Source: an uncultured bacterium (GTDB lineage Bacteria > Hydrothermota > Hydrothermia > UBA1063 > CAJXJZ01). From it: 34,028 bases of DNA. Position 1 is the first letter of the stretch. Each line of letters starts with the position of its first letter. The DNA lies in the NCBI GenBank assembly GCA_913055745.1, contig CAJXJZ010000015.1, positions 1 to 34,028 on the forward strand, given 5' to 3'. Position numbers and translations under genes: made by a program. Below, piece after piece: positions 13,958 through 34,028 of the stretch. The notes under the pieces were generated by a model. That model saw only the letters and a program-made list of their open reading frames with translations. It was not told the origin of the DNA and did no database searches.

Positions 13958-15274
13958 ATGGTAAAGTTCACCTTTAAAGGGGGTGTGCATCCAGAGTACA
14001 ATAAGATTACAACCGGGGTCCCTATAGAACCTCTCCCTCTTCCAAAAGAGTTATATGTACCTATATTACAACACCTTGGAAAGCCAGCAAAGGTTTTAGT
14101 AAAAAGGGGAGAGGTGGTAAAAAAGGGGCAGATAATAGCACAGGCTGATGGTTTTATCTCGGCAAACATACACGCTCCAACCTCAGGAAAGGTAAAAAAA
14201 ATATGGCCAGTACTACATCCTGTAACACATGTCAATGTAGATGCCGTTGTAATAGAACCCGATGGAGAAGATGAATGGGCAGATGGTGTAGAAGAGGACA
14301 AAAACTACAAGGATATATCACCTAAGGAGATAATAGAACGCGTAAAGAATGCAGGCATAGTTGGACTTGGTGGGGCCACATTCCCAACACATGTAAAACT
14401 CTCTCCTCCCAAAGACAAACCCATTGACACAGTTATAATAAATGGCGCAGAGTGTGAACCCTATCTTACTGCTGATGATAGACTTATGCAGGAGCGACCA
14501 GAGGATATAAAAGAGGGTGCATATCTTATAAAGAAGGCACTTTCAGCAAAGAAGGTGATAATTGCCATTGAAGACAATAAACCAAAGGCTATATCAAAGA
14601 TTGAGGAGGCCATCAAAGGTGAGAATTGGATTTCCGTTGCAGTTACCAAAACAAAATACCCAGAAGGAGGCGAAAAACAACTTATATGGGCTCTTTTAAA
14701 GAGGGAAGTGCCATCAGGTGGGCTTCCTATGGATGTTGGCGCACTTGTTCAGAATGTGGGCACAACGATTGCCATTTACGAGGCAGTAAGATATAGAAAA
14801 CCTTTAATAGAAAGGGTGTTAACCCTTTCAGGAGACCTTCCTAAGAAGAAAGGAAACTACCTTGTAAGACTTGGAACATTATTTAAGGATGTGATAGAAC
14901 TTGCAGGCGGGCTTTTAGATGATCCATACAGGGTAATTATGGGGGGCCCTATGATGGGTATCGCGCAGCATAGTTTGGATGTTCCTGTTATTAAAGGAAC
15001 AAGTGGTATTCTTGTATTCTCAGAAGAAAATACCCACTATCAGGAGCCCTATCCATGCATACGCTGTTCAAGATGTGTGGATGTATGCCCCATGAATCTT
15101 ATGCCTCTATTTCTGGTTGATCTTATTAAAGCAAAGAGGTTTGAGGATGCAAAAAAGATTGGACTTTTAGATTGCATAGAATGTGGGTCCTGTGCTTATA
15201 TATGTCCTTCACATATAAGACATGTTCAACTCATTAAATATGGTAAGCAAGAACTCAGGAGGCTTAAAAAATGA
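13958..15274 (+). CDS. rnfC: Rnf complex subunit C
   Basis: GLGGATFPTHVK, two ferredoxin motifs CIRCSRCVDVCP and CIECGSCAYICP, first gene of an rnfCDGEAB series. Confidence 0.95.
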   Translation: MVKFTFKGGVHPEYNKITTGVPIEPLPLPKELYVPILQHLGKPAKVLVKRGEVVKKGQIIAQADGFISANIHAPTSGKVKKIWPVLHPVTHVNVDAVVIEPDGEDEWADGVEEDKNYKDISPKEIIERVKNAGIVGLGGATFPTHVKLSPPKDKPIDTVIINGAECEPYLTADDRLMQERPEDIKEGAYLIKKALSAKKVIIAIEDNKPKAISKIEEAIKGENWISVAVTKTKYPEGGEKQLIWALLKREVPSGGLPMDVGALVQNVGTTIAIYEAVRYRKPLIERVLTLSGDLPKKKGNYLVRLGTLFKDVIELAGGLLDDPYRVIMGGPMMGIAQHSLDVPVIKGTSGILVFSEENTHYQEPYPCIRCSRCVDVCPMNLMPLFLVDLIKAKRFEDAKKIGLLDCIECGSCAYICPSHIRHVQLIKYGKQELRRLKK

Positions 15275-16236
15275 GTGAAAAACTCCTTGTAGTTTCCACC
15301 TCTCCACATATATTTACAAGGGAAGATACAAAAAAGATCATGTGGAACACTGTGTTATCTCTTCTTCCACCTGTGCTTGGAGCCCTCTATTTCTTTGGTA
15401 TAAGGGCACTCTGGGTGATACTTGTTTCAGTAATAAGTGCTGTTATAACAGAGGCAATATGGCTCTATTTAAGGAAAATGCCTCTTTCTATGTCATTGGA
15501 TGGAAGTCAGGTGATAACAGGCATCCTGCTTGCCCTTACATTGCCCCCTTCCATACCACTATGGATGGTCTCCTTAGGTTCAATTTTTGCCATCATCTTT
15601 GGTAAGCAGGTATTTGGTGGAATAGGGCAAAATATCTTCAATCCCGCACTTATTGGAAGGGCCTTTTTAATGGCTGCTTTCCCAGTAGAACTTACCACAT
15701 GGGCTGTGCCTCACACCGGATTCCCTATGCATTTTGATGCCACTACATCTGCTACGCCCCTTGCACTCTGGAAGTTTTCACACCAGATGACATCATATAA
15801 GGCACTCTTTTTGGGTAATGTAGGCGGTTCCTTGGGTGAGACATCTGCACTTCTAATTCTGATAGGCTTTGCCTTTCTTGTTGCTAAAAAGTATATAGAC
15901 TGGAAAGAATCTGTCTCTTATGTTGGAACTGTGTTTGTTCTTGGGGGTATCTTCTGGTTAATAAATCCTTCAAAATACCCGGACCCATTGTTTCATATCC
16001 TCTCAGGTGGTCTTATGTTAGGTGCCGTGTATATGATAACGGACATGGTAACAAGCCCTGTGACCTCAAAGGGAAGGATTATTTATGGTATTGGTGCAGG
16101 TATTTTGGTAATCCTTATAAGGCTCTTTGGTGGATATCCTGAAGGTGTAATGTATTCCATACTCCTTATGAACCTCACAAGGCCATGGATTGATAGGTTA
16201 ACTATTAGAAGAAGATTTGGGGAGGTAAAAAGATGA
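15271..16236 (+). CDS. rnfD: Rnf complex subunit D
   Basis: Multi-TM; flavinylation-type motif DATTSATPLALWKF; ATGA overlap with rnfC. Confidence 0.93.
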   Translation: MSEKLLVVSTSPHIFTREDTKKIMWNTVLSLLPPVLGALYFFGIRALWVILVSVISAVITEAIWLYLRKMPLSMSLDGSQVITGILLALTLPPSIPLWMVSLGSIFAIIFGKQVFGGIGQNIFNPALIGRAFLMAAFPVELTTWAVPHTGFPMHFDATTSATPLALWKFSHQMTSYKALFLGNVGGSLGETSALLILIGFAFLVAKKYIDWKESVSYVGTVFVLGGIFWLINPSKYPDPLFHILSGGLMLGAVYMITDMVTSPVTSKGRIIYGIGAGILVILIRLFGGYPEGVMYSILLMNLTRPWIDRLTIRRRFGEVKR

Positions 16237-16784
16237 AATTGGGCGTAAAAATGATCGTTGTGTTAACCTCCATAGCGCTTTTAAGTGGCCTTTTCCTGTC
16301 ATATACCTACAAATCCACAGAGCAAGATATTAAAAGAAATAAGGAGCGGGAGAAGGAAAGGGCTATAAAGGTCGTAATTCCAGAAACAGATAGTTTTAAA
16401 GAAAGGGTTATAGATGCAAAAAACTCCCTCCTTACATCCTATGACAAAAATGGACATATCGTTGGCTATGCAATACTTACAGAAGGCACAGGATTTCAGG
16501 GACCTATAAAACTCATGGTTGGATTTGATACGACACTTTCTAAGATTAAAGGTTTGGAGATTCTTGAAAATGTTGAGACGCCAGGGCTTGGAAACAGGAT
16601 AACCGAGAATTGGTTTAAAGAGCAGTTTAGAGGCAGACTTGCGCCAGTGGGCTATGTAAAGGGTAAAAAGCCCCAGGACCCTCACAAAATACAGGCTATT
16701 TCAGGTGCTACAATTTCGTCTCGTTCTGTTGTAAAAATAGTTAATCAGACTTGGGAACTTTTGAAAAAGGAGTTGAATAGATGA
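16233..16784 (+). CDS. rnfG: Rnf complex subunit G (FMN-binding)
   Basis: Single N-terminal TM helix, ETPGLGNRI, SGATISSRSVV FMN-attachment motif. Confidence 0.93.
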   Translation: MKLGVKMIVVLTSIALLSGLFLSYTYKSTEQDIKRNKEREKERAIKVVIPETDSFKERVIDAKNSLLTSYDKNGHIVGYAILTEGTGFQGPIKLMVGFDTTLSKIKGLEILENVETPGLGNRITENWFKEQFRGRLAPVGYVKGKKPQDPHKIQAISGATISSRSVVKIVNQTWELLKKELNR

Positions 16785-17389
16785 AAAAGCATTCCTTATT
16801 CTATGAATTTAAAAAGGGCCTTGTATCTGAAAACCCTGTACTTGTTATGGTATTGGGCCTTTGCTCAACCCTTGCAGTTTCAAACAAGGCAATAAATGCC
16901 GTTGCCATGGCACTCTCAGTGTTCTTTGTATTGTTTTTCTCCTCATTGATCATAGGCATTATTAAAGACCTCATACCTGACCAGGTAAGAATACCCTCAT
17001 TTATACTCGTAATAGCGACTTTTGTTACCATTGTAGACCTGTTTATGCGGGCAAAATTCCCTGGGATTTCAAAGGCACTTGGTCCATACATCCCTCTTAT
17101 TGTTGTGAACTGTATAATCTTGGGAAGACAGGAGGCGTTTGTATCAAAAAATCCGCTCTCTGCGTCTTTAATGGATGCCATTGGAATGAGCTTAGGATAC
17201 TTCTGGGTTATAGTCCTTTTGGGTATTGTTCGTGAGTTTCTTGGATTTGGTACGGTATTTGGTTTTAGGGTACTTGGCTCATGGTTTAAGCCATGGCTTG
17301 TAATGGTATTACCGCCTGGGGCATTCCTTACACTTGGTGTTTTTGTTGGTGTCTTGAACCTCATAAGGCCAAAGGGAGGTAAAGCATGA
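16781..17389 (+). CDS. rnfE: Rnf complex subunit E
   Basis: KGLVSENPVLVMVLGLCSTLAVS...PYIPLIVVNCIILGRQEAF, RnfE/RsxE signature. Confidence 0.95.
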   Translation: MKKHSLFYEFKKGLVSENPVLVMVLGLCSTLAVSNKAINAVAMALSVFFVLFFSSLIIGIIKDLIPDQVRIPSFILVIATFVTIVDLFMRAKFPGISKALGPYIPLIVVNCIILGRQEAFVSKNPLSASLMDAIGMSLGYFWVIVLLGIVREFLGFGTVFGFRVLGSWFKPWLVMVLPPGAFLTLGVFVGVLNLIRPKGGKA

Positions 17390-17970
17390 TACAGAAAGCG
17401 ATCATCATATTCCTCGCCGCTGTATTAACCAATAATTTTGTCCTCACCTATTTTTTAGGATTATGCCCATTTTTTGGTGTATCAGAGCATGCATCATCTG
17501 CCATTGGTATGGGTTTTGCCTCCACCTTTGTTATGACCCTGACGGCTATAACAGCATGGATAATGGATTGGCTTGTTTTAAGACCCCTGCATCTTGAGTT
17601 TCTCCAGACAGCTGTTTTTATCCTTGTCATAGCATCCCTTGTCCAATTTGTTGAGATGTTTATTAAGAAAACATCTAAAGAGCTCTACAAGGCGCTCGGT
17701 ATTTATCTCCCGCTGATTACAACAAACTGTATAGTGTTTGGTCTTGCCATAATTGGTTCAATGAAGAACTACAACCTTCTTGAGAATACCATGCTGGGTT
17801 TTGGTGCTGGAGTAGGATTTACCCTTGCTCTTGTTCTCATGGCTGGTATAAGGGAAGAATTGGAGTTTAAAAATGTTCCAGAGCCTCTAAAAGGTACAGG
17901 TATTGCACTTATTGTTGCAGGACTTATGGCACTTGCCTTTATGGGTTTTTCAGGAATGGTTTCACTTTAG
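17386..17970 (+). CDS. rnfA: Rnf complex subunit A
   Basis: VLTNNFVLTYFLGLCPFFGVS...LGIYLPLITTNCIVFGLAI. Confidence 0.95.
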   Translation: MIQKAIIIFLAAVLTNNFVLTYFLGLCPFFGVSEHASSAIGMGFASTFVMTLTAITAWIMDWLVLRPLHLEFLQTAVFILVIASLVQFVEMFIKKTSKELYKALGIYLPLITTNCIVFGLAIIGSMKNYNLLENTMLGFGAGVGFTLALVLMAGIREELEFKNVPEPLKGTGIALIVAGLMALAFMGFSGMVSL

Positions 17971-17979
17971 GAGGTAAAA

Positions 17980-18792
17980 ATGAATACCATTTTACTTTCA
18001 GTTATTGTAATGGCAGGAATGGGCATATTTTTTGCAGTATTTCTCCTTGTATCCTATAAAAAACTTTCAGTGGAAGAAGACCCGAGGATAAAGCAGATAG
18101 AAGAAATCCTGCCCGGTGCAAACTGTGGTGCATGTGGTTTTGCTGGTTGTGCCGCCTATGCAGAAGCCATTGTGCTTGAGGGAGCAGAGGTGAATAGATG
18201 TGCACCTGGAGGACCTGATGTTGCAAAGAAAATAGCAGAACTAATGGGGGTTCAAGTAGAAGTGAAAGAAGCACCTGTGGCCCACCTTATGTGCCAGGGA
18301 TCCCGTGATGTGGCGGTTCAAAGGAGCGTGTATGTAGGTGAGCCATCCTGTCGTATTGAGGATTTTACAACAAAAGGAGACAAGGCGTGTACTTATGGAT
18401 GCTTGGGCCTGGGCGATTGTGTTAGGGCGTGTCCCTTTGATGCCATGTACATGGGAGAGGATGGCCTTCCAAAAATAATAGAAGAAAAATGTACAGGGTG
18501 TGGTATTTGTGTTGAAGAATGTCCAAGGGATATACTTGCCCTTGTGCCAAGAGACCAGAAAACCTTTGTGGCATGTGTAAATAAGGATAAGGGTGCTATA
18601 TCCCGTAAGGTGTGTAAGGTCTCATGCATAGCATGTGGTCTGTGCGTTAAAAAGGCGCCAGAGGGATCAATGGAACTTAAGAATAACCTTGCTGTTATTC
18701 TTGATTATAAACAGGTTGATACAAAGAGTGAGGAGGTATACGCTGCCTGTCCAACCAAGGCTATAGAACTTAAAGAGGAAAAGGATGGCTGA
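17980..18792 (+). CDS. rnfB: Rnf complex subunit B (ferredoxin-type)
   Basis: LPGANCGACGFAGCAAYAEAI, CTYGCLGLGDCVRACPFDAM, CTGCGICVEECP. Confidence 0.95.
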   Translation: MNTILLSVIVMAGMGIFFAVFLLVSYKKLSVEEDPRIKQIEEILPGANCGACGFAGCAAYAEAIVLEGAEVNRCAPGGPDVAKKIAELMGVQVEVKEAPVAHLMCQGSRDVAVQRSVYVGEPSCRIEDFTTKGDKACTYGCLGLGDCVRACPFDAMYMGEDGLPKIIEEKCTGCGICVEECPRDILALVPRDQKTFVACVNKDKGAISRKVCKVSCIACGLCVKKAPEGSMELKNNLAVILDYKQVDTKSEEVYAACPTKAIELKEEKDG

Positions 18793-21173: not shown

Positions 21174-21661
21174 GTATGCATAAAGAGTTATGTGAAATAT
21201 GCGGTAAAAGACCCGCAGAAGTAGAATTTGTAGAAATAGTGGATGGTAAAAAGGTTGTGATGCATCTTTGTAAAATATGTGCCAATCGCAAGGCAAATGG
21301 CTTACCCTTGTTGCTTACAGAAGAGATTGAGGAAGATAGTGCTCTTGTATGTCCCAATTGTGGGACATCGCTCTCCCAAATAAAACAAACCCTACAGGTT
21401 GGTTGTCCTGTGTGTTATGATACATTCCGTGGTGCTATAAAGGACCTTTTAAAGAAACTTCAGGGAAGCGCCTCTTTTTCCGCCCAAATAGACCTAAAAA
21501 CTTCAGAAGAAAAGGACCTTATAGTTATGAAGTATAGATTAAAAAAAGAATTGGATGAGGCGGTAAAGAATGAAGATTTTGAAAGGGCGGCAAAATTAAG
21601 GGATGAAATAGAAAATATAGACAAGAGGCTCAAATGGCTTGGTACGAACCCTATAGAATAA
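21170..21661 (+). CDS. mcsA: McsA-like zinc-finger/UVR-motif protein
   Basis: CEICGKRPA...CKICANRK...CPNCGTSLSQIKQTLQVGCPVCYDTF, C-terminal UVR motif EAVKNEDFERAAKLRDEIENI. Confidence 0.9.
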   Translation: MSMHKELCEICGKRPAEVEFVEIVDGKKVVMHLCKICANRKANGLPLLLTEEIEEDSALVCPNCGTSLSQIKQTLQVGCPVCYDTFRGAIKDLLKKLQGSASFSAQIDLKTSEEKDLIVMKYRLKKELDEAVKNEDFERAAKLRDEIENIDKRLKWLGTNPIE

Positions 21662-22665
21662 CACCTCCATGGTGGCAATCGCAAGGAAAAATAGTTGCAT
21701 CCACAAGGGCGAGATTTACAAGGAACATAGAAGGTCATAGATTCCCTCAGAGGATGGATGAAAAGGAAAGAGAGAGTATTTTAAATGAGATTATACTTTC
21801 TATCAAAGATGTGGTGTCAGGATTCAAAAATACTGTAATTGATACGAATATAAAGAGAGATTTTTTCGTTGAAAGGCATGTATTGAGTAAGGATAGCCAA
21901 AAAAATATAGCCCTTTTTACGGATCATACCGAAGAAGAGAGTTATCTTATAAACGATAGAGATCATCTAAGATTCCAAATAACAATGCCCGATAATGCAC
22001 TTTTTGATGTTTTTTCTTTAGCAAGGGAAAGATTGAGAACATTGGAAAAAGAGTTTAATTTTAGTTATTCTGATACATTTGGTTATCTTACCTCCTCTCT
22101 TACAAATACTGGAACAGGCTTTAGGCTTTCCGCTCTTATGTTTATACCAGGCATTTTTCTTGCAAGAGAGACAGAGAAAATATTGGCGCTTTTGGTTAAG
22201 GCTCCAATTGTTTTAAGGGGACTTTTTGGCGGTCATAGCGAGATAAAGGGAAATTACCTCCAGATATCCACAAAATTTACCCTCAGTATGGGTATTGAGG
22301 ATGATCTGAGGATGCTTGATGAAGTAGTGAAGGCACTTTCTGAAACAGAAGAAAAATCAAGGAACATATTGCTTTCTGAGGCGCATCTTGAACTTGAAGA
22401 TAGAATATCAAGGTCACTCGCCATACTTGAAAGTGCAAGGATAATGTCTTATGATGAGTCCTTAGAACATCTTTCTATACTAAAATTTGCCTCTCAACTG
22501 GGTTTTGAGGGTATTCCAGATGAAAAAACAATTAACAGATTGATTTTTTGGTCTTCTCCTTCGCATATAGCATCATTGGAGGATTTTGAATTGAAGGATG
22601 AAGAAATTGATATAAAAAGGGCAGATTTTATTAGAAAACATCTTTTTAGAGATTATGAAGATTAA
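21634..22665 (+). CDS. mcsB: McsB-like guanido kinase family protein, probable pseudokinase
   Basis: ASTRARFTRN, NDRDHLRFQ, GYLTSSLTNTGTGFRLSALM, RGLFGGHSEIKGNYLQIS align with McsB motifs but with catalytic substitutions; adjacent to mcsA. Confidence 0.85.
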   Translation: MAWYEPYRITPPWWQSQGKIVASTRARFTRNIEGHRFPQRMDEKERESILNEIILSIKDVVSGFKNTVIDTNIKRDFFVERHVLSKDSQKNIALFTDHTEEESYLINDRDHLRFQITMPDNALFDVFSLARERLRTLEKEFNFSYSDTFGYLTSSLTNTGTGFRLSALMFIPGIFLARETEKILALLVKAPIVLRGLFGGHSEIKGNYLQISTKFTLSMGIEDDLRMLDEVVKALSETEEKSRNILLSEAHLELEDRISRSLAILESARIMSYDESLEHLSILKFASQLGFEGIPDEKTINRLIFWSSPSHIASLEDFELKDEEIDIKRADFIRKHLFRDYED

Positions 22666-23932: not shown

Positions 23933-23961
23933 TTGATTGTTCATGCTACAGAACTTATAAT
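23933..23961 (+). promoter_or_regulatory. Candidate sigma70 promoter of hdr/frd cluster (TTGATT-N17-TATAAT)
   Basis: TTGATT 23933-23938, 17 nt, TATAAT 23956-23961; AAGGAGG at 23986-23992 precedes TTG start at 23999. Confidence 0.65.
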
Positions 23962-23998: not shown

Positions 23999-24403
23999 TT
24001 GGGTGTCCTTAAGTTAACAAAAGAGAAGTTCCGTAAAGTTGACCTCATAAATCGTATTAGCGGTCAAAATGTTTATGACTGCTATCAGTGCGGACGGTGC
24101 ACATCAGGTTGCCCCAGCGCTGATGAGATGGATATTGTACCTTCACAGACTATGAGATTTTTACAGATCGGAGAAGTAGACAAGGTTGTAGAATCCAACA
24201 CTCCATGGGTGTGTCTTACATGTCTTATTTGCTCAGTCAGATGTCCAAAGGGAATAGATATCGCGGCAATTATGGAAGCATTGAGGCTCGTTAAATTGAG
24301 AACTAATTACGACTTTATACACCCTAACAAAATACCAGAGGAAGATCTTGAAGAACTTCCTCCAATTGCACTTGTTGCAGCGTTCCGCAAGATGACTCCA
24401 TAA
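23999..24403 (+). CDS. hdrC: Heterodisulfide reductase subunit C-like (2x[4Fe-4S])
   Basis: CYQCGRCTSGCP and CLTCLICSVRCP; TTG start with AAGGAGG 6 nt upstream; followed by hdrB. Confidence 0.88.
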   Translation: MGVLKLTKEKFRKVDLINRISGQNVYDCYQCGRCTSGCPSADEMDIVPSQTMRFLQIGEVDKVVESNTPWVCLTCLICSVRCPKGIDIAAIMEALRLVKLRTNYDFIHPNKIPEEDLEELPPIALVAAFRKMTP

Positions 24404-24414
24404 AGGAGGCTAAA

Positions 24415-25299
24415 ATGACGATAAAAATACCTTATTATCCCGGCTGTACCTTGAAGACCACGGCAAAGAATTTTGAAGATACAGCAAAACTTGTAGCAGG
24501 GGTGTTTGATTACGAGTTTGATGAACTTTATAGATGGAATTGTTGTGGTGCGGTATACGGACTGTCAGAGGATAATGTTATGCATAAGGTTGCACCAGTT
24601 AGAAATATGTTAAGGGTTAAAGAGGTTGGAGAAAAGAGGATGCTTGTTCTTTGCTCAATGTGTTTTAATACACTTAAGAGGGCAAACTATTATGTGAGAA
24701 GGAATAAAGATAAACTTGAGGTGATAAATGCCATTATGTATCTTGAGAATACCACGTACGACGGCAGTGTTGAGGTTGTACATCTACTTGAGCTCTTAAG
24801 GGATGAGATAGGGTTTGATAGAATAAAAAAGGCTGTAAAAAAGCCACTTCGGGGTATAACAGTGGCCGCCTATTACGGTTGCCTTCTTTTAAGGCCAAGT
24901 GAAATTGCTATAGACAGTGTGGAACAGCCAACTGTTATGGAGGATTTAGTGGAGGCATTGGGAGGTAAAGTTATTGATCTTAATGTTAAAACTGAGTGCT
25001 GTGGCTCTTATCAAACAGTGAAAAGGAAAGATATAGTTGCTGATAGAACCAATTTTATTATTGGAGAGGCAAGGAAACAGGGTGCAGATATGCTCATCAC
25101 ATCATGCCCATTATGTCATTTTAATCTTGATAGAAGGCAAAAGGAGGCAAAAAAACGACATCCTGATTTCAAAGAAATGCCCATACTTTATTTTACTCAA
25201 CTTATGGCACTTGCCTTTGGCTTTGAAGAGGATAAACTCGGATTTGAACCCCATTATGTAGATCCAAGGCCTTTATTAAAAGAAAGGGGGTTATTATAA
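24415..25299 (+). CDS. hdrB: Heterodisulfide reductase subunit B-like (two CCG domains)
   Basis: YYPGC...NCCG...CSMC and YYGC...ECCGS...CPLC, both CCG motifs complete. Confidence 0.93.
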   Translation: MTIKIPYYPGCTLKTTAKNFEDTAKLVAGVFDYEFDELYRWNCCGAVYGLSEDNVMHKVAPVRNMLRVKEVGEKRMLVLCSMCFNTLKRANYYVRRNKDKLEVINAIMYLENTTYDGSVEVVHLLELLRDEIGFDRIKKAVKKPLRGITVAAYYGCLLLRPSEIAIDSVEQPTVMEDLVEALGGKVIDLNVKTECCGSYQTVKRKDIVADRTNFIIGEARKQGADMLITSCPLCHFNLDRRQKEAKKRHPDFKEMPILYFTQLMALAFGFEEDKLGFEPHYVDPRPLLKERGLL

Positions 25300-27323
25300 T
25301 GGCAGAAAAGCCCAGAATTGGTGTATTTGTCTGTCACTGCGGCCTTAATATCGCAGGTGTTATTGATGTAAAAAAAGTGGCAGAAGAGGCAAAGAAGATA
25401 CCTGGAGTGGTATTTTCTACAACCTATGTTTACATGTGCTCAGAACCTGGCCAACAACTGGTAATAGATTCTATTAAAAAATACAAATTAAATGGTGTTG
25501 TAGTCGCAAACTGTTCACCTACCTTACATGAGAGAACATTCAGAAACGCTGCTGCAAGAGCAGGGCTCAATCCTTACAGGGTAGAAATAGCCAATATTCG
25601 TGAGCAGGTTGCATGGCCACATGAACACGAGCCTGAGATTGCGACAAAGAAGGCTATTAGAATCGTTAAAGCCACTGTGGAACGTGTAAAGAACAACATG
25701 GCTTATGTCCCCTATGAAATCTCTGTTAACAAAAAGGCGTTAGTTATAGGTGGTGGAATTGCAGGCATTCAGGCGTCCTTAGATATTGCAGAGGCTGGAT
25801 ATGAGGTCTACCTTGTTGAAAAGTCGCCATCCATAGGCGGCAAGATGATACTTCTTTCTGAGACATTTCCCACACTTGACTGTCCTCAGTGTATTGAAAC
25901 GCCTAAGATGACGGATGTATCTCAAAATCCCAGGATTCACCTTATGACATATTCAGAAGTTGAATCTGTCTCTGGTTACATGGGCAATTTTAAAGTCAAG
26001 GTGAGACGTAAAGCAAGATATGTAGATGTGGATAATTGTCTCGGATGTGGTGCTTGTGTAGAGGCTTGCCCTGTAAAAAATATCCCATCTGAAGTAGACA
26101 GGGGTCTTACTAATAGGAGGGCTATTTATATTTCATTTGATCAGGCGGTCCCTCTCGTTCCGGTGATCGATGCGGATCATTGTATAAAATTAACATATGA
26201 GAAAAAGGTTGCAGAAGGTAAAATAAAGAGGCGTTCAAAACCTGGCACTGTTAAAATATGCGAAAAATGTCAGGATGCCTGTGAGCCAAAGGTGATAAAC
26301 TTTAAGGATACGGATAAGATTGAAGAGATTGAGGTTGGTGCGATCATTGTTGCAACCGGATTTGACCTTATGCCAATGGAGAAACTTCCCGAATATGGAG
26401 GAGGTAAGATACCAGATGTCATTGATGCGCTTGCTTTTGAAAGATTACTTGCTCCCTCAGGTCCCACTCATGGTGTTCCCAAAAGACCTTCAGATGGTAA
26501 AATACCAAAGACCGTCGTATTTGTATCCTGTGCAGGTTCAAGGGACCCTGCTCATGGTGTTGCATACTGCTCAAGGATATGTTGTATGTATCTTGCCAAA
26601 CAGGCAATGCTTTATAAACACGCAGTGCCAGATGGCATGGCTTATAACTTCTACATTGATATCCGTTCAAACGGAAAGGGATATGAAGAGTTTGTTCAAA
26701 GGGTGAGAGAACAAAGAGACCTAATTTATTTAAGGGGTAAGGTTTCAAAGATTTTCCAGAGAGGAGACAAAGTGGTTGTATGGGGAGCAGATACATTAAC
26801 AGGTCAGAAGATTGAGATTGAGGCAGATCTCGTTGTTCTTTCTAATGCCATGGTGCCTTCGGAAGGAGCAAAAGAACTTGCCCAGAAACTCAGAATTCCA
26901 CAGGATGAGTATGGATGGTTTAATGGTGCGCACTTGAAATTGAGGCCACTTGAAACCGTAACAGCAGGTATATTTATTGCGGGTGCTGCACAGTTTCCAA
27001 AGGATATAACAGATACAGTTTCCCAGGCATCAGGTGCTGCTGCGAAGGTAATCTCCATGTTTGCTAAACCTAAATTAACGAAAGAGCCACTCATAGCCAA
27101 TGTGGATACAGAAATATGTGCAGGTTGTGGTATATGCAAAGAACAGTGTGCCTATGGTGCTATCACTATTGATCCCAAGAAGAAGGTATCCGTTGTAAAT
27201 GAGGCATTATGTGAAGGGTGTGGCGCTTGCGCTGCTGTCTGTCCATCTGGTGCGATGCAACTTAGGAATCTCAATAGCAAGCAGGTCATAAGAATGGTAG
27301 AAGTATTAACAGAGGATTATTAA
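25299..27323 (+). CDS. hdrA: Heterodisulfide reductase subunit A-like flavoprotein
   Basis: RIGVFVCHCGLNIAGVIDV, VIGGGIAGIQASLDIAEAGYEVYLVEKSPSIGGKM, CLGCGACVEACP, C-terminal CAGCGICKEQC and CEGCGACAAVCP. Confidence 0.95.
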   Translation: MAEKPRIGVFVCHCGLNIAGVIDVKKVAEEAKKIPGVVFSTTYVYMCSEPGQQLVIDSIKKYKLNGVVVANCSPTLHERTFRNAAARAGLNPYRVEIANIREQVAWPHEHEPEIATKKAIRIVKATVERVKNNMAYVPYEISVNKKALVIGGGIAGIQASLDIAEAGYEVYLVEKSPSIGGKMILLSETFPTLDCPQCIETPKMTDVSQNPRIHLMTYSEVESVSGYMGNFKVKVRRKARYVDVDNCLGCGACVEACPVKNIPSEVDRGLTNRRAIYISFDQAVPLVPVIDADHCIKLTYEKKVAEGKIKRRSKPGTVKICEKCQDACEPKVINFKDTDKIEEIEVGAIIVATGFDLMPMEKLPEYGGGKIPDVIDALAFERLLAPSGPTHGVPKRPSDGKIPKTVVFVSCAGSRDPAHGVAYCSRICCMYLAKQAMLYKHAVPDGMAYNFYIDIRSNGKGYEEFVQRVREQRDLIYLRGKVSKIFQRGDKVVVWGADTLTGQKIEIEADLVVLSNAMVPSEGAKELAQKLRIPQDEYGWFNGAHLKLRPLETVTAGIFIAGAAQFPKDITDTVSQASGAAAKVISMFAKPKLTKEPLIANVDTEICAGCGICKEQCAYGAITIDPKKKVSVVNEALCEGCGACAAVCPSGAMQLRNLNSKQVIRMVEVLTEDY

Positions 27324-27343
27324 AGGAAATAGGGAGGCTTTTA

Positions 27344-28069
27344 ATGGCAGAGAAAGAAGTTTTAAATGAAGAAGAAAAAGAGCCCCAGGCAAAGATGATT
27401 CCTGTTTTTATAATGGGGCAGAAGTATGAAGTGCCTGAAGGCTCCACTATATTGAACGCCATAGAATACGCTGGATACCAACTCAAAAAAGGTGTAGGGT
27501 GTAGAGAAGGCTTCTGTGGTGCATGTGCAACCGTTTACAGGCTTCCAGGAGACTACAAGTTAAGGGGCGGTCTTGCATGTCAAACCGTTGTGCAACCTGG
27601 TATGTATCTCACACAGATACCATTTACCCCAGCACAAAAGGCAATATACGACATAGATGAGGTAAAACCTGATATCAGTACCTTCCAGAAATTCTACCCT
27701 GAAGTATTCAGGTGTCTTGGATGTAATGCATGCACAAAGGTATGTCCACAGGAACTTAAGGTAATGGATTACATTCAGGCTATAATGAGAGGTGATATTG
27801 AACTTGCCGCTGATTTATCCTTTGACTGCATTATGTGTGGACTTTGCACAATGAGATGTCCTGCAGAAATGGCACAGTATAATATAGCCCTACTTGCAAG
27901 AAGACTTTATGGAAAATACATGATGCCAAAGCCCGAGTTTGTCTATAAGCGTATTGAAGAGATAGAACAGGGAAAGTACGAAAAGGAATTTGAGGAGATT
28001 ATGTCCCTTTCAAAAGAAGAACTCGAAAAAAGATATACAGAAAGAGACATCAACTTTGATATAACATAG
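27344..28069 (+). CDS. Fumarate reductase/succinate dehydrogenase-type iron-sulfur subunit (TfrB N-terminal-like)
   Basis: [2Fe-2S] CREGFCGAC...GGLAC; CLGCNACTKVCP and CIMCGLCTMRCP. Confidence 0.85.
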   Translation: MAEKEVLNEEEKEPQAKMIPVFIMGQKYEVPEGSTILNAIEYAGYQLKKGVGCREGFCGACATVYRLPGDYKLRGGLACQTVVQPGMYLTQIPFTPAQKAIYDIDEVKPDISTFQKFYPEVFRCLGCNACTKVCPQELKVMDYIQAIMRGDIELAADLSFDCIMCGLCTMRCPAEMAQYNIALLARRLYGKYMMPKPEFVYKRIEEIEQGKYEKEFEEIMSLSKEELEKRYTERDINFDIT

Positions 28070-28078
28070 GGGGAGAAA

Positions 28079-29788
28079 ATGAAGAGTTTTCCAGGATATC
28101 CTGAAAGCATGTGGCCATCCTTGGAGATGGTTGAGAAGACAAGGCCTAAAAGGGTAGAGCTTGCGAAACAGGGGCTTATAAACTTCCTAAAACCCATGAG
28201 CCTTGAAGAGAGGGAGGATGTTTTAAGTAAGTACCATCCAGATTACCAGCCAGATGCAGAAAAAGAGATACATGTTGGGCCAAATAAGGGTGAAAAATTA
28301 ACAGCAAAGGTTGTAGAACTCCTTGAATCCCATGCTCGTATAAAACCTGAGGAAGTTGACCTATCTAATCCTGACTTTGATGTGGATGTACTTGTTATAG
28401 GTGGTGGTGGTGCTGGGTCACAGGCTGCAATATGGGCAATGAAGGAAGGTGCAGATAGCATAGTTCTTGCAACAAAACTCAGAATTGGCGATGCCAATTC
28501 TATGATGTCACAGGGTGGAATGCAGGCTGCAGTAAATCCACATGATTCCCCTGTGATACACTACCTTGATATAATAGGTGGTGGTCATTTTGCCAATAAG
28601 CCGGAACTCGTAAAGGTACTTGCTTCAGAGGCTCCATTTATAGCAAAATTCCTTATGGAGTTGGGTGTTATGTGGGACAGAGATGAGACAGGTCATCTAC
28701 AAACAAAGCCCGGTGGTGGAACGTCAAGAAGGAGGATGCTTTCTGCTCGTGATTATACAGGTGCTGAGATTATGAGGGTGTTAAGGGATGAGGTTAAAAA
28801 CCATCCTGATAAGATAACACTACTTGAATACTCACCTGCTATAGAACTTTTAACAGATGAAGAGGGTAGAGTGGCTGGTGCCATTTTAATGCAGACAGAG
28901 ACAGGTGAGTTTATAGTTGTTAGGGCAAAGTCCACAGTTATTACAACAGGTGGATTTGGAAGGCTCCATATTAAAGGATTTCCAACAACAAACCATTATG
29001 GGGCGACAGCAGATGGTCTTGTACTTGCTTATAGGGTTGGCGCAAGATTAAGGGATATGGATACAGTTCAGTTTCATCCCACAGGTGCTGTTTTCCCTGA
29101 GCAGGTATGGGGATTCCTTATAACAGAGAAGGTAAGAGGACTTGGTGGTCAGCCTGTAAATAAAAACGGTGAACTCTTTGTATATCCCCTTGAGCCAAGG
29201 GATGTTGAGGCGGCATCCTTTATAAGAGAATGTGCAAAAGGGCTTGGCGTAACAACGCCAACAGGTAAAGTTGGGGTATGGCTTGATTCACCTGTTATAG
29301 AAGAACTTTCAGGGCCTGGTACCATAGAAAAACAACTACCTGCCATGTTGAGACAGTTTCATAGGTTTGGGATTGATATAAGAAAGACGCCCATGCTTGT
29401 TTATCCAACGCTACATTATCAAAATGGTGGTATTGAAATCAACGAGAGAACTGAAACCAATGTGCCCAATCTCTTTGTTGGAGGTGAGGCATCTGGTGGG
29501 GTTCATGGCAAAAACAGGTTGATGGGCAATTCTGTTCTTGATTATAATGTTTTTGGCAGAAGAGCAGGCATTTTTGCTGCCAGAAATGCTAAAAAGAACA
29601 ATATTGGAAAGAAATTGACACTACAACATGTGGAAAAATGGGAGAAAGAACTAAAAGAGGCAGGAATAGAGACAAAGAGAATAAGTCCCATACTCTTTCC
29701 TGATTACAGAAATAAGGAGATACTTAAAAAACACCGGAATGAGTTTGACCCATTTATAGGGTTTGCATTGACAGGGTGGCAGGAATGA
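28079..29788 (+). CDS. Fumarate reductase/succinate dehydrogenase-type flavoprotein subunit
   Basis: VIGGGGAGSQAAIWA, DTVQFHPTGAV...LITEKVRGLGG, PRDVEA, PTLHYQNGGIE, GVHGKNRLMGNSVLDYNVFGRRAG. Confidence 0.9.
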   Translation: MKSFPGYPESMWPSLEMVEKTRPKRVELAKQGLINFLKPMSLEEREDVLSKYHPDYQPDAEKEIHVGPNKGEKLTAKVVELLESHARIKPEEVDLSNPDFDVDVLVIGGGGAGSQAAIWAMKEGADSIVLATKLRIGDANSMMSQGGMQAAVNPHDSPVIHYLDIIGGGHFANKPELVKVLASEAPFIAKFLMELGVMWDRDETGHLQTKPGGGTSRRRMLSARDYTGAEIMRVLRDEVKNHPDKITLLEYSPAIELLTDEEGRVAGAILMQTETGEFIVVRAKSTVITTGGFGRLHIKGFPTTNHYGATADGLVLAYRVGARLRDMDTVQFHPTGAVFPEQVWGFLITEKVRGLGGQPVNKNGELFVYPLEPRDVEAASFIRECAKGLGVTTPTGKVGVWLDSPVIEELSGPGTIEKQLPAMLRQFHRFGIDIRKTPMLVYPTLHYQNGGIEINERTETNVPNLFVGGEASGGVHGKNRLMGNSVLDYNVFGRRAGIFAARNAKKNNIGKKLTLQHVEKWEKELKEAGIETKRISPILFPDYRNKEILKKHRNEFDPFIGFALTGWQE

Positions 29789-32472
29789 AAAAGCATGTTG
29801 TAATCTATGGGACCAACTTAGCGGCGCTTAAAGCAGCGGCTAATTTCGGCAAATCTGGATATTCTGTGCTTTTGTTGAATAAGGGCCGCTTCATAGGGGA
29901 TGTGCCAAATCTTTTGTCGTCCTCCTCTCCGCGCAATGTATACTATCCGAGTTTGAGCGTCTTCGTAAGTAAATTACCTACTGTTGAAGTGTGGCACAAT
30001 GTAGAACTTGATAATGTAAGTGCCGATAAAAATGTTGTGAAGATTACCTTAAAGAGAAAAATGCCTTTTGTAGACGAGCGAAAATGTATTGTGTGTCAAA
30101 AATGCGTAGGAAAAGGTGTTCGCTATATAAGGAGGCCCGGCGGAATATTCATAAGGGATGATGATACCTTGGAAAATGCAGATGAACTTGAGTCACTTTG
30201 TCCTGTTGGGGCAATAAATACAAAAGAAGAGATTGTAAGTGAACAAATTGAGAGCGATATATTTCTTATTGGGACGGAATTTGAAGTAAGTAAGGAAGAA
30301 CTTGAAAAATATGGATATGGCACTATAGATAATGTAATTACTCTTAAAGAAGCAGAACACTTGATTTTTGGTGGTAAGACTAAAGAAGAAGCATTTAGCA
30401 AGGATGATGGAACGCTTATAAACAAGGTTGCTTTTGTTCTTCCATATACCCTGGAAAATGAGGGGTATCTTAGCAATTATCCTTTCTTTAAATTGGCAGA
30501 AACACCACTTGCCTTTAAGGAATTACATCCTGATATGGACATTACAGTATTTTATAACTTGCCCAATTTCTATGGAAAAGGAAATGTTGCCATTTTAAAG
30601 GAGGCCAAAGAGCGTGGAATAAAGATTGTAAAAACAGATGATATCAAAGTGGAGGAAGGCCCGAAGGTCAACGGTGAGGATTTTGAACTTGTTGTTCTTG
30701 GACTTTTGGAAAAAGCACCATCCGAACTTAAAGACCTTTCAGAGAAACTCCATCTTAGGATGCTTGATTCAGGGTACATCTGGACCTCTCCTGACTCACT
30801 AAAGACAAGTGTTGATAGGGTTTTTGTCGTAGGAGAGGCACATACTGCAAAACCACCTATAGATAGTTTGTATGATGCTGCATTGGTAATAGTAGAAAGT
30901 CTTGAGTATCTATCTCCACCCATAAAGATGCAGCCCCAAAAGATGGAATTTCCTAATTACGATGAGGTGGATGAACCCAATATAGGGCTTGTAATTTGCC
31001 GCTGTGCTGCAGAATACCATGGAAATAAAGCAGAAGAACTTAAAGAGAGAGAAAAACCATATTACAAGGATGTTAAGATTATAGATTACCTATGCACAGA
31101 GAAGGGACAGTCAGAACTTATTTCATTTATAAAAGATAATGATCTTCATAGGGTGGTTATTGGTGCATGTTCACCGAGGTTAAAACAACCTGCTATAATG
31201 AATACTGTAGCAAGGGCGGGTCTTGACCCTGTTTATGCAGATGTTGCGCAACTTAAAGAGTATGGCAATGCCCTTGATGTTCAAGAAAGACTAATCGCAT
31301 TCTCAAGAAAAAAGGTTCTTGATAGAAAGCAGTGGCCTATGCCTGTAGAAGACTACGACAATAAAACAATTATAATAGGAACATCCACTGCTGCTTTGTC
31401 TGCTGCGTTATCTATTCAAAGGGCTGGGTTCCCTGTATTAATTGTTTCAGAAAATAGGATTATTCCTGAGACACCTATGCAGGATAGACTATTGAACAAA
31501 TTAAAGGATCAAAAAGATGTTCGGATGCTTGAGAAGGTTAATATAGAAGGCCTTGAGGGATATGCCGGGCATTTTGTTCTAAACTTCTCTCAAGGAGAAA
31601 GTGGAGAAAAAACATATAGTGAAAAGGCAGGAGCAATTTTATTTGCACCATCCGTGAAAGTTGATATAGGTGCAGAAGATTTCAATGATAAAGAGCATAT
31701 TGGTATAGTTTGTGGACTCTTAAAGGGTAATATAACTTCTACTTCAAGGGCTACCTGTAATAAAGCACTTATGCTTGTCGAAGAACTTCTTGAGAAGGGT
31801 AAGAAGGTAACAGTGGGCACGCCAGTGTCATGTATCAATGGTACAAATCAGGATAAAGTGAAGTTGCTTTTAAAGAAGGGATTGGATCTGGAGTTCTTTG
31901 ATCCATTTTCCAATGAAGAGAGTATAAGTGATGCACTTAAAGAAAGAGGTGCTGACATTGTTATTAAGATTGATGTAAACGCAGAAGATGCAGTAAAATT
32001 AGCAAACAAATTGGGATTTAAAACAGATCCGGATGGACTTTTTACCTTCCTTGATGGTCCTTATGATGAGGTAAACATTAGATTGAGGATACATGACCTT
32101 GCATCCAACGGTATATTCGTTGCAGGTTACATGCACAAGCCTATGACAGAAGAAGAAGAGATAAAGGATGGAGAAGCACAGGCATTCTCAATTTTACAAC
32201 TCGTATCAAAAGGCAAGATGACACCACATCCTGAGGCAGGGAGATTTGTCTCATATACCAATTATAGAAAATGCGCGGGTTGTGCCCTGTGTGTTAATGC
32301 TTGTGAATATGACGCAAGATATATTGATCCTATTGAAAAGGTAGCAAAAGTTAGAGAGATTTTATGTGATGGTTGTGCTGCCTGCGTAAATGCCTGTCCA
32401 TCAGGCGCAGCACAGGTGAGATCTCTTGAAACCAAAACAATGCTTGAAATAATTAATGAATCTGTGAAATAA
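29785..32472 (+). CDS. Large HdrA-like protein: two HdrA-type units, both with degenerate Rossmann motifs
   Basis: Unit 1 HVVIYGTNLAALKAAANFGKSGYSVLLLNKG; unit 2 NIGLVICRCA... then IIIGTSTAALSAALSIQRAGFPVLIVSENR; C-terminal CAGCALCVNAC and CDGCAACVNACP. ORF track start is 29776; ATG 29785 overlaps the previous stop as ATGA. Confidence 0.85.
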   Translation: MKKHVVIYGTNLAALKAAANFGKSGYSVLLLNKGRFIGDVPNLLSSSSPRNVYYPSLSVFVSKLPTVEVWHNVELDNVSADKNVVKITLKRKMPFVDERKCIVCQKCVGKGVRYIRRPGGIFIRDDDTLENADELESLCPVGAINTKEEIVSEQIESDIFLIGTEFEVSKEELEKYGYGTIDNVITLKEAEHLIFGGKTKEEAFSKDDGTLINKVAFVLPYTLENEGYLSNYPFFKLAETPLAFKELHPDMDITVFYNLPNFYGKGNVAILKEAKERGIKIVKTDDIKVEEGPKVNGEDFELVVLGLLEKAPSELKDLSEKLHLRMLDSGYIWTSPDSLKTSVDRVFVVGEAHTAKPPIDSLYDAALVIVESLEYLSPPIKMQPQKMEFPNYDEVDEPNIGLVICRCAAEYHGNKAEELKEREKPYYKDVKIIDYLCTEKGQSELISFIKDNDLHRVVIGACSPRLKQPAIMNTVARAGLDPVYADVAQLKEYGNALDVQERLIAFSRKKVLDRKQWPMPVEDYDNKTIIIGTSTAALSAALSIQRAGFPVLIVSENRIIPETPMQDRLLNKLKDQKDVRMLEKVNIEGLEGYAGHFVLNFSQGESGEKTYSEKAGAILFAPSVKVDIGAEDFNDKEHIGIVCGLLKGNITSTSRATCNKALMLVEELLEKGKKVTVGTPVSCINGTNQDKVKLLLKKGLDLEFFDPFSNEESISDALKERGADIVIKIDVNAEDAVKLANKLGFKTDPDGLFTFLDGPYDEVNIRLRIHDLASNGIFVAGYMHKPMTEEEEIKDGEAQAFSILQLVSKGKMTPHPEAGRFVSYTNYRKCAGCALCVNACEYDARYIDPIEKVAKVREILCDGCAACVNACPSGAAQVRSLETKTMLEIINESVK

Positions 32473-32483
32473 GGAGGTTTAAA

Positions 32484-32903
32484 GTGGGCGAGTTTGAACC
32501 CAAAATAGTGGGATTTTTCTGTAACTGGTGTACCTCAAGTGCTGCGGATCTTGCAGGAACATCAAGGCTTGAGTATCCTGCCAATATAAGGCCCATAAGG
32601 GTTCCGTGTAGCGGAACCGTTGATCCTGTCTACCTTTTGAGGGCATTGAGAGAAGGTGCAGATGGCGTAATGATAGGTGGGTGCCATCCTGGGGATTGTC
32701 ATTACATAACGGGTAATCTTAAGGCAAGGAGAAGGGTTAAGATAGTGAAAACCATACTTGAGTCCCTTGGACTTCCACATGAGCGTGTTCTTCTTGCGTG
32801 GATAAGTGGAGCAGAAGGAGCAAAGTTTCAGAGGGTCGTGACAGAATTCACCAATAAACTTAAAGAAATGGGTCCCGCAGACCTTTCTAAGAAATGGCAA
32901 TAG
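32484..32903 (+). CDS. mvhD: MvhD/HdrA-partner [2Fe-2S] subunit (hydrogenase iron-sulfur subunit family)
   Basis: IVGFFCNWCTSSAADLAGTSR...VPCSGTVDPVYLLRALREGADGVMIGGCHPGDCHY; GTG start with AAGGAGG. Confidence 0.93.
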   Translation: MGEFEPKIVGFFCNWCTSSAADLAGTSRLEYPANIRPIRVPCSGTVDPVYLLRALREGADGVMIGGCHPGDCHYITGNLKARRRVKIVKTILESLGLPHERVLLAWISGAEGAKFQRVVTEFTNKLKEMGPADLSKKWQ

Positions 32904-32914
32904 GAGGCATTTAA

Positions 32915-33991
32915 ATGTCAAAAGGTGCATGGATAAAGACAAAAAAAGATCCCAATGAGGCAGCAGGCTGGTTTTTGGCAGAGTTGAGAAGAAAGGATAT
33001 TGTAAAGGGCGTAATGGCTCAAAAAGAGATGTATCCAGGGCAGGGTGCATGGCATTATCTACTTAAAAACCCAGAAGATATAGAGAAAACAAAGGTCTTT
33101 ATACCGTTTATGGGTTCAAGTGGTGCCACAGCGCTTTCTAAACTTACAAAGGACAAACCTCTCAAAGACCCAGTTGCTATGGTGCTTCGGCCATGTGAAG
33201 TAAGGGGTGTTGTAGAACTTACAAAGTACAAGCAAATCCAACTTGACAATGTCATAATAATCAGTTTTGATTGTGTTGGTACTTATGAAAGAACAACTTA
33301 CCTTGAGGGTCCCACCTATCTTCCTGAGGATGAAGAAAAATTAAGGGGTGCGTGTAAGAGGTGTAAGAGGTTCACGCCTAATTTTGGGGACATAACCTTG
33401 ACTTATCTTGGTATAAGTGAAGGTATTATGGCCATTCCTACCTCTGAAAAGGGAGAAGAGATACTAAAATCCCTTGGTTTTGAACTTGTGGAAGTTCCAG
33501 CAGAAAGAGAGAAGAAACTTGCAGAACTTCAAGAAAAAAGAGAAAAGGCAAGAGAGGAGCAGTTTACAGAGTTCAAGAAAGAGTACAGTGGTATGGAAGG
33601 GCAGTTAAAATTCTTTGGAAAGTGCATAAACTGTAAAAACTGTATGGAAAACTGTCCTATCTGTTTCTGCAAAGAATGCTTCTTCAAATCGCCTTCTCTT
33701 ACGTGGGATTCAGAGGTTTATATGGATATGCTTGATAACAAAGGTGCAGTCAGAATGCCAGAAGATCCCATTTTCTTCCAGTGGGGAAGGCTTGCACACA
33801 TAACACCGTCATGTATAGGCTGTGGCCTATGTACAGAGGCATGTCCGGTTGGCATAGATGTTGGGCTCATTTTCTCCTATGTAGCAGAACATGTTCAGGG
33901 TGCATTTGATTATGAGGCAGGTAGGTCCCTTGATGAGTCTCCAATTCTTATGGAGTTCAAAGAAAAAGAATTGGAAGACCTTGCAATGTAA
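32915..33991 (+). CDS. FrhB/FdhB-like flavin/iron-sulfur oxidoreductase subunit
   Basis: AMVLRPCEVRGVVELTKYKQIQLDNVIIISFDCVGTYE (FrhB-like), GACKRCKRFTPNFGDITL, CINCKNCMENCPICFCKECF and CIGCGLCTEACP. Confidence 0.8.
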   Translation: MSKGAWIKTKKDPNEAAGWFLAELRRKDIVKGVMAQKEMYPGQGAWHYLLKNPEDIEKTKVFIPFMGSSGATALSKLTKDKPLKDPVAMVLRPCEVRGVVELTKYKQIQLDNVIIISFDCVGTYERTTYLEGPTYLPEDEEKLRGACKRCKRFTPNFGDITLTYLGISEGIMAIPTSEKGEEILKSLGFELVEVPAEREKKLAELQEKREKAREEQFTEFKKEYSGMEGQLKFFGKCINCKNCMENCPICFCKECFFKSPSLTWDSEVYMDMLDNKGAVRMPEDPIFFQWGRLAHITPSCIGCGLCTEACPVGIDVGLIFSYVAEHVQGAFDYEAGRSLDESPILMEFKEKELEDLAM

Positions 33992-34028
33992 GGTATAAAA
34001 ATTAAAAAATTAAAATTTGCAAAGATTA

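Follow-up and report, generated by a model that had tools for sequence, protein, structure and literature searches.

The window analysed here is the complete contig CAJXJZ010000015.1 (C15; 34,028 nucleotides) from a 1.79 Mb, 95.4% complete genome of the WOR-3 phylum, closest among named genomes to WOR-3/Hydrothermota metagenome-assembled genomes, and it carries a cluster of eight genes in which homologues of heterodisulfide reductase (Hdr) subunits surround a fumarate reductase-like FrdBA pair. The eight tightly packed, same-strand genes described in an earlier note on this DNA were all recovered in our open reading frame (ORF) check, on the + strand between 23999 and 33991. Spacing within the octet ranges from -13 to +20 nt, while 90 nt separate it from the preceding gene, which ends at 23908, and the family names of all eight were backed by Pfam, NCBIfam and PDB searches. 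HdrC (23999..24403), which has two [4Fe-4S] clusters and would relay electrons between HdrA and HdrB, starts at a TTG codon preceded by an AAGGAGG site. It is followed by HdrB (24415..25299), with two CCG motifs of the non-cubane [4Fe-4S] type, and HdrA (25299..27323), a flavin adenine dinucleotide (FAD)/Fe-S hub of the bifurcating type and the sole intact one in the cluster. FrdB (27344..28069) has one [2Fe-2S] and two 4-Cys [4Fe-4S] motifs, and FrdA (28079..29788) is a soluble fumarate reductase flavoprotein with predicted non-covalent FAD and an N-terminal extension of about 100 residues. The last three genes encode an 898-residue HdrA-like protein (29776..32472) that resembles a degenerate tandem HdrA-HdrA with its Fe-S Cys kept, an MvhD/FlxD-type [2Fe-2S] connector (32484..32903) that would join the input arm to HdrA, and an FdhB/ElpB-like (FrhB-like) electron-input subunit with 15 Cys (32915..33991).

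The absence of a membrane anchor held up, as no transmembrane-like stretch was found in any cluster protein (highest 19-residue Kyte-Doolittle mean, 1.53), and so did that of a hydrogenase or formate dehydrogenase catalytic subunit, none being present among the window ORFs scanned. The earlier note had also placed the genes behind one promoter. A -10/-35-like site does lie at 23933-23961, 5' of the cluster, but there are 21 such matches against 25.7 expected in shuffled sequence; because these matches are no commoner than chance, a single promoter can be argued from gene packing only. The earlier note advised reading beyond position 34028 for further subunits. The window stops at the contig end, and in a same-genus locus that continues (L036) the FrhB-like gene is followed by a citrate-transporter-family gene and no further redox subunit. 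The loci of relatives likewise stop after the FrhB-like gene, and no subunit appears to have been cut off.

Orthologues of FrdA were 54-93% identical over their full length, including the N-terminal extension, whereas generic homologues were about 35% identical (the two that were checked are one NadB and one SdhA/FrdA). By sequence, FrdBA is a distinct family, well apart from these generic homologues. A PDB search with FrdA matched fumarate reductase/succinate dehydrogenase, and an AlphaFold model of FrdB-FrdA read through the in-frame stop (predicted template modelling score, pTM, 0.70) served for the FrdA fold match only. The fumarate-site residues, equivalent to H232, T244, E245, R248, R287, H355 and R390 of E. 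coli FrdA, are invariant in 74 orthologues, and all 12 Cys of FrdB are invariant in 68 sequences. The genome encodes a class I fumarase outside the cluster, and in WOR-3 relatives that lack an adjacent Hdr, fumarase adjoins FrdBA (both parts in L156 and L163, the beta part in L168); a fourth locus, L154, looks alike as raw ORFs only. Malic enzyme follows FrdBA in Caldisericia and Delongbacteria. Because the active site is invariant and fumarase is adjacent in relatives, the substrate is very probably fumarate/succinate, as the earlier note had supposed. In all 74 FrdA orthologues the FAD-linking His (H44) is replaced by Asn. In studied enzymes this His is needed for succinate oxidation, as H44 mutants have shown, and its loss would therefore favour the reduction direction. 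With this substitution and no membrane anchor in the cluster, FrdBA lacks the features of a quinone-linked fumarate reductase/succinate dehydrogenase; UbiA family matches in the genome do not settle quinone synthesis.

The Hdr genes were examined in the same way. HdrA best matched HdrA of Elp-Hdr/Mvh-Hdr in the PDB (639 bits) and HdrB matched HdrB. Cysteines were invariant in HdrC (8/8 in 33 sequences, forming two [4Fe-4S] motifs), HdrB (10/10 in 40 sequences, with both CCG motifs in 40/40) and MvhD (5/5 in 45 sequences). The set expected of a bifurcating HdrABC-MvhD module is complete, comprising the HdrA FAD domain and Fe-S ligands, two CCG motifs in HdrB, two [4Fe-4S] motifs in HdrC, and MvhD, and the cluster ligands expected for the roles earlier given to HdrA and MvhD are in place. 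Scores fell below the NCBIfam cut-offs for CoB-CoM heterodisulfide reductase (HdrA 751/1100, HdrB 181/345, HdrC 65/160 bits), and by this measure the window HdrABC is a homologue, not the methanogen enzyme. TfrA was the top-scoring NCBIfam family for FrdA (362.9 bits, below the cut-off of 718), and FrdB, HdrC and HdrB matched successive segments of the 488-position TfrB model (19-110, 128-222 and 354-472). TfrB of thiol:fumarate reductase is thus a natural fusion of the proposed FrdB-HdrC-HdrB chain, which offers the best indirect evidence of physical coupling. FrdA distances also correlated with those of FrdB, HdrA, HdrB, HdrC and MvhD (Spearman 0.55-0.85, a level reached in 0/200 permutations; shared phylogeny uncorrected).

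The 898-residue protein had been described as an HdrA paralogue. Its layout is indeed that of tandem HdrA-HdrA proteins, and the N-domain Cys and C-terminal clusters are retained, but both GxGxxG dinucleotide-binding motifs are gone (GTNLAA and GTSTAA), a loss on which the reading as a second bifurcating HdrA was rejected as improbable. It diverges fast, with 67% and 39% identity within the genus compared to 85-94% for its neighbours, and is missing in one locus of the same order (L038). The protein is probably a scaffold or an Fe-S relay.

We next considered how electrons might enter. In a PDB search the FrhB-like protein was closer to Hdr-associated FdhB/ElpB than to FrhB, and the best structural match of its model (mean predicted local distance difference test score 80, pTM 0.82) was ElpB of Elp-Hdr (8rvu_E, template modelling score 0.75). 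In the solved Elp-Hdr complex electrons pass from ElpB to the MvhD homologue ElpC and on to HdrA, without hydrogenase or formate dehydrogenase activity (PMC12350162). The window cluster contains no FdhA/ElpA partner, and no F420 ligase was found in the 95% complete genome, in which the controls were positive. Since the organism lacks this ligase, its donor must differ from that of Elp-Hdr, and F420 is unlikely to serve the FrhB-like subunit. In relatives, NAD(P)H modules take the form of an NfnB-type insert in HdrA or of FlxABC, the latter in most non-WOR-3 clusters. Two same-genus genomes carry such an NfnB/GltD-like NAD(P)H domain in HdrA, inserted so that it separates the first Cys of one ferredoxin-domain cluster from the remaining three, at a position occupied by a 23-residue linker in the window HdrA. 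The FlxABC module is absent from the window cluster; the genome has its Flx-Hdr locus at another site. Judged from these sequences, the most likely donor for the wider family is NAD(P)H, without this being assigned to the window organism.

The conservation of the gene set was assessed at 52 loci with a total flank of at least 12 kb, where some gene absences represent contig or flank ends. FrdB was present in 52, HdrA in 48, HdrB in 46, MvhD in 46 and HdrC in 39, and 38 loci held all five. The 2-oxoacid:ferredoxin oxidoreductase genes KorABC lay inside many clusters (37 loci), and FlxABC was found in 31-34. This FrdBA-HdrCBA-MvhD linkage extends across WOR-3, Caldisericia, Aminicenantes, Cloacimonadota, Gallionellaceae and tubeworm symbionts with varying gene order, which suggests selection rather than the mere inheritance of a single operon. 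Scanning the GTDB genomes returned 255 relatives, the best 80 of which include Aminicenantes, Caldisericia, Cloacimonadota, Delongbacteria, Gallionella/Sideroxydans, Hydrogenophilales and a tubeworm symbiont. Within the WOR-3 phylum, 83 of 133 genomes that are at least 80% complete carry the FrdA family (59 of the 93 high-quality ones), and in 20 loci from well-assembled WOR-3 contigs FrdB and FrdA were always paired. Where these loci lack an adjacent Hdr, the neighbours of FrdBA include, besides fumarase, glutamate dehydrogenase (L160) and the alpha subunit of electron-transferring flavoprotein (ETF) with an acyl-CoA dehydrogenase-like gene (L155, L164). The latter two, from other WOR-3 genomes, show an apparent operon of FrdBA, ETF-alpha, a 4Fe-4S protein and the acyl-CoA dehydrogenase-like protein (L155:6790-11615 and L164:6685-11517). 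Only in the genus and its close relatives are exactly these eight genes found together (L036, L037 and L039; truncated in L040). The full octet of L037 (WFSJ01000046), with an FrdA 83% identical to that of the window, lies on a contig of a metagenome-assembled genome labelled Acidobacteria, for which misbinning or recent transfer is possible. The earlier claim of one eight-gene assembly, to be checked by eight-family synteny, is borne out as a conserved functional unit and not as a widespread octet, and FrdBA often stands without adjacent Hdr genes. Given how often it does so, FrdBA is a modular acceptor unit and no fixed part of one assembly.

Taken together, we favour the interpretation, with a probability of about 0.58, that the eight genes encode a soluble bifurcating fumarate reductase built around HdrA, from which reduced ferredoxin can pass to Rnf. 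In this scheme, a mid-potential donor would pass electrons through the FdhB/ElpB-like subunit and MvhD to the FAD of HdrA, the donor being NAD(P)H in relatives with the HdrA-NfnB insert or FlxA. One electron of each pair would enter the low-potential branch, through the HdrA ferredoxin domains to ferredoxin, and the other would travel the high-potential branch via HdrC/HdrB and FrdB until it reached the FrdA flavin (FAD), the site of fumarate reduction to succinate. HdrB would form the end of the high-potential branch, presumably pairing with FrdB or with a disulfide. Reduced ferredoxin could then be used by Rnf for ion pumping or by 2-oxoacid:ferredoxin oxidoreductases. Midpoint potentials (E0') are +33 mV for fumarate, -320 mV for NADH and -420 to -500 mV for ferredoxin, and by our own calculation from these textbook values the reaction of 2 NADH, fumarate and 2 ferredoxin would be exergonic by ~33-49 kJ per mol fumarate. 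A bolder version, which we regard as doubtful, holds that fumarate is the sole high-potential acceptor, reached by a direct HdrB-FrdB wire with no thiol carrier involved; that electrons enter independently of F420 through the ElpB-like subunit; that the catalytically dead tandem HdrA is a scaffold; and that FrdBA is a plug-in acceptor module fitted by different lineages to Hdr, ETF or other donors.

The window itself provides a candidate sink. An Rnf operon (13958..18789, + strand), which the earlier note passed over, encodes RnfC, D, G, two RnfA/E-type subunits and B, and is probably a user of reduced ferredoxin. An RseC-like gene follows it, with the Hdr-Frd cluster ~5 kb further downstream. 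Other redox genes of this genome include NfnAB-like genes, two 2-oxoacid:ferredoxin oxidoreductases, a group 3-type [NiFe] hydrogenase and an Hdr-Flx locus beside malic enzyme, with no [FeFe] hydrogenase in the genome; reduced ferredoxin made by the proposed complex would have users. The second Hdr locus, on contig C1 (L134:8808 to L135:11562), encodes a 1485-residue HdrA-HdrA fusion with an NfnB-like insert, MvhD, Flx-like subunits, a 918-residue HdrA-like protein, HdrC and HdrB, followed by small, possibly DsrE-like proteins (a single weak DsrE2 match), a GcvH-family lipoate carrier and the malic enzyme. On contig C31 (L140:1767-8408) the NfnAB-like genes adjoin a Nuo-like module with a NuoI-GltD-type fusion of 602 residues. 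Contig C2 (L146:2229-5477) carries a SucC-like ligase with a C-terminal ferredoxin-like domain, a SucD-like subunit and an adjacent citryl-CoA lyase, a possible citrate cleavage system of the Ccs/Ccl type. Elsewhere in the window (21170-22665), genes for a UVR-motif protein and an ATP:guanido phosphotransferase-domain protein, flanked by dxs and an imidazolonepropionase-like gene, form an mcsA-mcsB-like (protein-arginine kinase) pair.

Several observations weigh against a bifurcating fumarate reductase. None of the input subunits encoded in the window cluster has a recognisable site for NAD(P)H or F420, and four near-complete sister-family genomes lack FrdA. Among the loci examined, no HdrB-FrdB or FrdA-HdrC pair lay adjacent in one reading frame from which an Hdr-Frd interface might be modelled. 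HdrB retains its two CCG motifs, as a disulfide reductase would, and may serve a thiol carrier in place of FrdB. Hdr is adjacent to FrdBA in only 8/20 WOR-3 loci and missing in 12/20, and since some loci pair FrdBA with ETF-alpha and an acyl-CoA dehydrogenase-like gene, it needs no Hdr in cis. One alternative is a pair of enzymes joined by a diffusing dithiol/disulfide, in which HdrCBA-MvhD-FrhB would reduce, or bifurcate to, a disulfide and the thiol would return electrons through HdrB to FrdBA as in thiol:fumarate reductase, with no direct wire from HdrA to FrdA. The TfrA and TfrB matches, like the HdrB motifs and the FrdBA pairs without neighbouring Hdr, are consistent with such a carrier, but a single hdrB would have to both oxidise and reduce it, and these bacteria have no known thiol cofactor (no search for a DsrC-type carrier was made); we consider this arrangement unlikely. 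FrdBA might also be an independent soluble fumarate reductase fed by ferredoxin, flavodoxin or ETF, the Hdr-like enzyme only supplying the carrier, which would fit the several WOR-3 genomes where it stands by itself beside genes for fumarase or ETF. The recurrent linkage to HdrCBA-MvhD across distant phyla in changed order, the correlated distances and the natural TfrB fusion make this rather unlikely in our view.

A soluble complex of this kind might instead run in reverse, co-oxidising succinate and reduced ferredoxin (confurcation) to form NAD(P)H and close an oxidative route resembling the tricarboxylic acid (TCA) cycle. Hdr electron transfer is reversible in principle, and the 2-oxoacid:ferredoxin oxidoreductase genes within many clusters would fit, as would the ETF and acyl-CoA dehydrogenase-like genes that some relatives have next to FrdBA. 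With Asn at the FAD-linking position in 74/74 orthologues and a reaction that we estimate to be uphill by ~33-49 kJ/mol under standard conditions, we judge reverse operation improbable. Finally, FrdA could act on another substrate, either aspartate, as NadB does, or urocanate, an imidazolonepropionase-like gene being adjacent. It is the sole member of the FrdA/SdhA/NadB superfamily found in the genome (no second homologue at E<=0.001), and NadA is encoded. However, the equivalent of NadB Glu121 is Gly in the window FrdA and all 74 orthologues, and NAD synthesis is served by an aspartate dehydrogenase of the genome's own, so that FrdA need not be an L-aspartate oxidase, a role that was rejected. 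The invariant fumarate site and the fumarase beside FrdBA in relatives make any such substrate highly improbable.

If the bifurcating fumarate reductase is real, energy from cytoplasmic fumarate reduction would be captured as reduced ferredoxin in many uncultured anaerobes (WOR-3, Aminicenantes, Caldisericia, Cloacimonadota) and some iron/sulfur oxidisers, for use by Rnf or in CO2 fixation by the reductive TCA cycle, and the complex would be a central energy trait of WOR-3, given the frequency of the FrdA family there. A proposed, unproven enzyme class would also become testable; the literature searched contained no assay of fumarate-dependent ferredoxin reduction on a purified complex, and the class remains biochemically unproven.

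Hydrogenobacter has a soluble NADH:fumarate reductase of five subunits, FrdABCDE. The idea of an Hdr-coupled fumarate reductase is already published, and the window carries its FrdBA, HdrABC and MvhD/FlxD; the earlier note could not match the exact combination to a characterised complex, but closely similar proposals are in print (PMC7282089, PMC6315080, PMC11636981). In Pseudoclostridium thermosuccinogenes, fumarate-ferredoxin coupling was proposed for a 'succinate operon' of fumarase, Flx-Hdr and fumarate reductase (PMC7282089). The likeness, judged from the described operon, lies in a fumarate reductase encoded with an Hdr-type bifurcation complex; where that operon has Flx-Hdr and fumarase, the window cluster has an input of the FdhB/ElpB type and the degenerate HdrA-like protein, and fumarase is encoded at another place in the genome. 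The reductive TCA cluster of tubeworm symbionts and Thioflavicoccus, flxABCD-hdrABC-korABCD-tfrAB (PMC6315080, PMC11636981), represents a group that shares the FrdBA family and HdrCBA-MvhD with the window at ~61% FrdA identity (L098, Lamellibrachia symbiont; L115, RIFOXYD12), but carries KorABC and FlxABC, neither of which is in the window cluster. A survey of WOR-3 lists fumarate reductase, HdrABC and Rnf, with no discussion of an Hdr-Frd cluster in the part of the survey consulted (PMC12542636).

Among archaeal systems, the methanogen Elp-Hdr and Fdh-Hdr complexes (PMC12350162; PDB 8rvu, 7bkb) share HdrABC, MvhD/ElpC and the FdhB/ElpB fold with the window, which differs in having neither ElpA/FdhA in the cluster nor F420 ligase and in its added FrdBA output arm. 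Compared to methanogen TfrAB, the window has the parts of TfrB as three separate proteins and, in addition, HdrA, MvhD and an input arm, and its FrdA falls below the TfrA cut-off. Anaerobic methanotrophic (ANME) archaea have HdrA-NfnB fusions, tandem HdrA and HdrA clusters in which FdhB stands alone (PMC9012536). Together with HdrL of Desulfobacterium autotrophicum (PMC2702500), the ANME fusions and tandem proteins resemble the same-genus HdrA-insert homologues and the tandem layout of the 898-residue protein, whereas the window HdrA has no insert and the 898-residue protein has lost its dinucleotide-binding motifs. What is new in the window is the ElpB-like input without FlxABC, Kor or F420, combined with a degenerate tandem HdrA.

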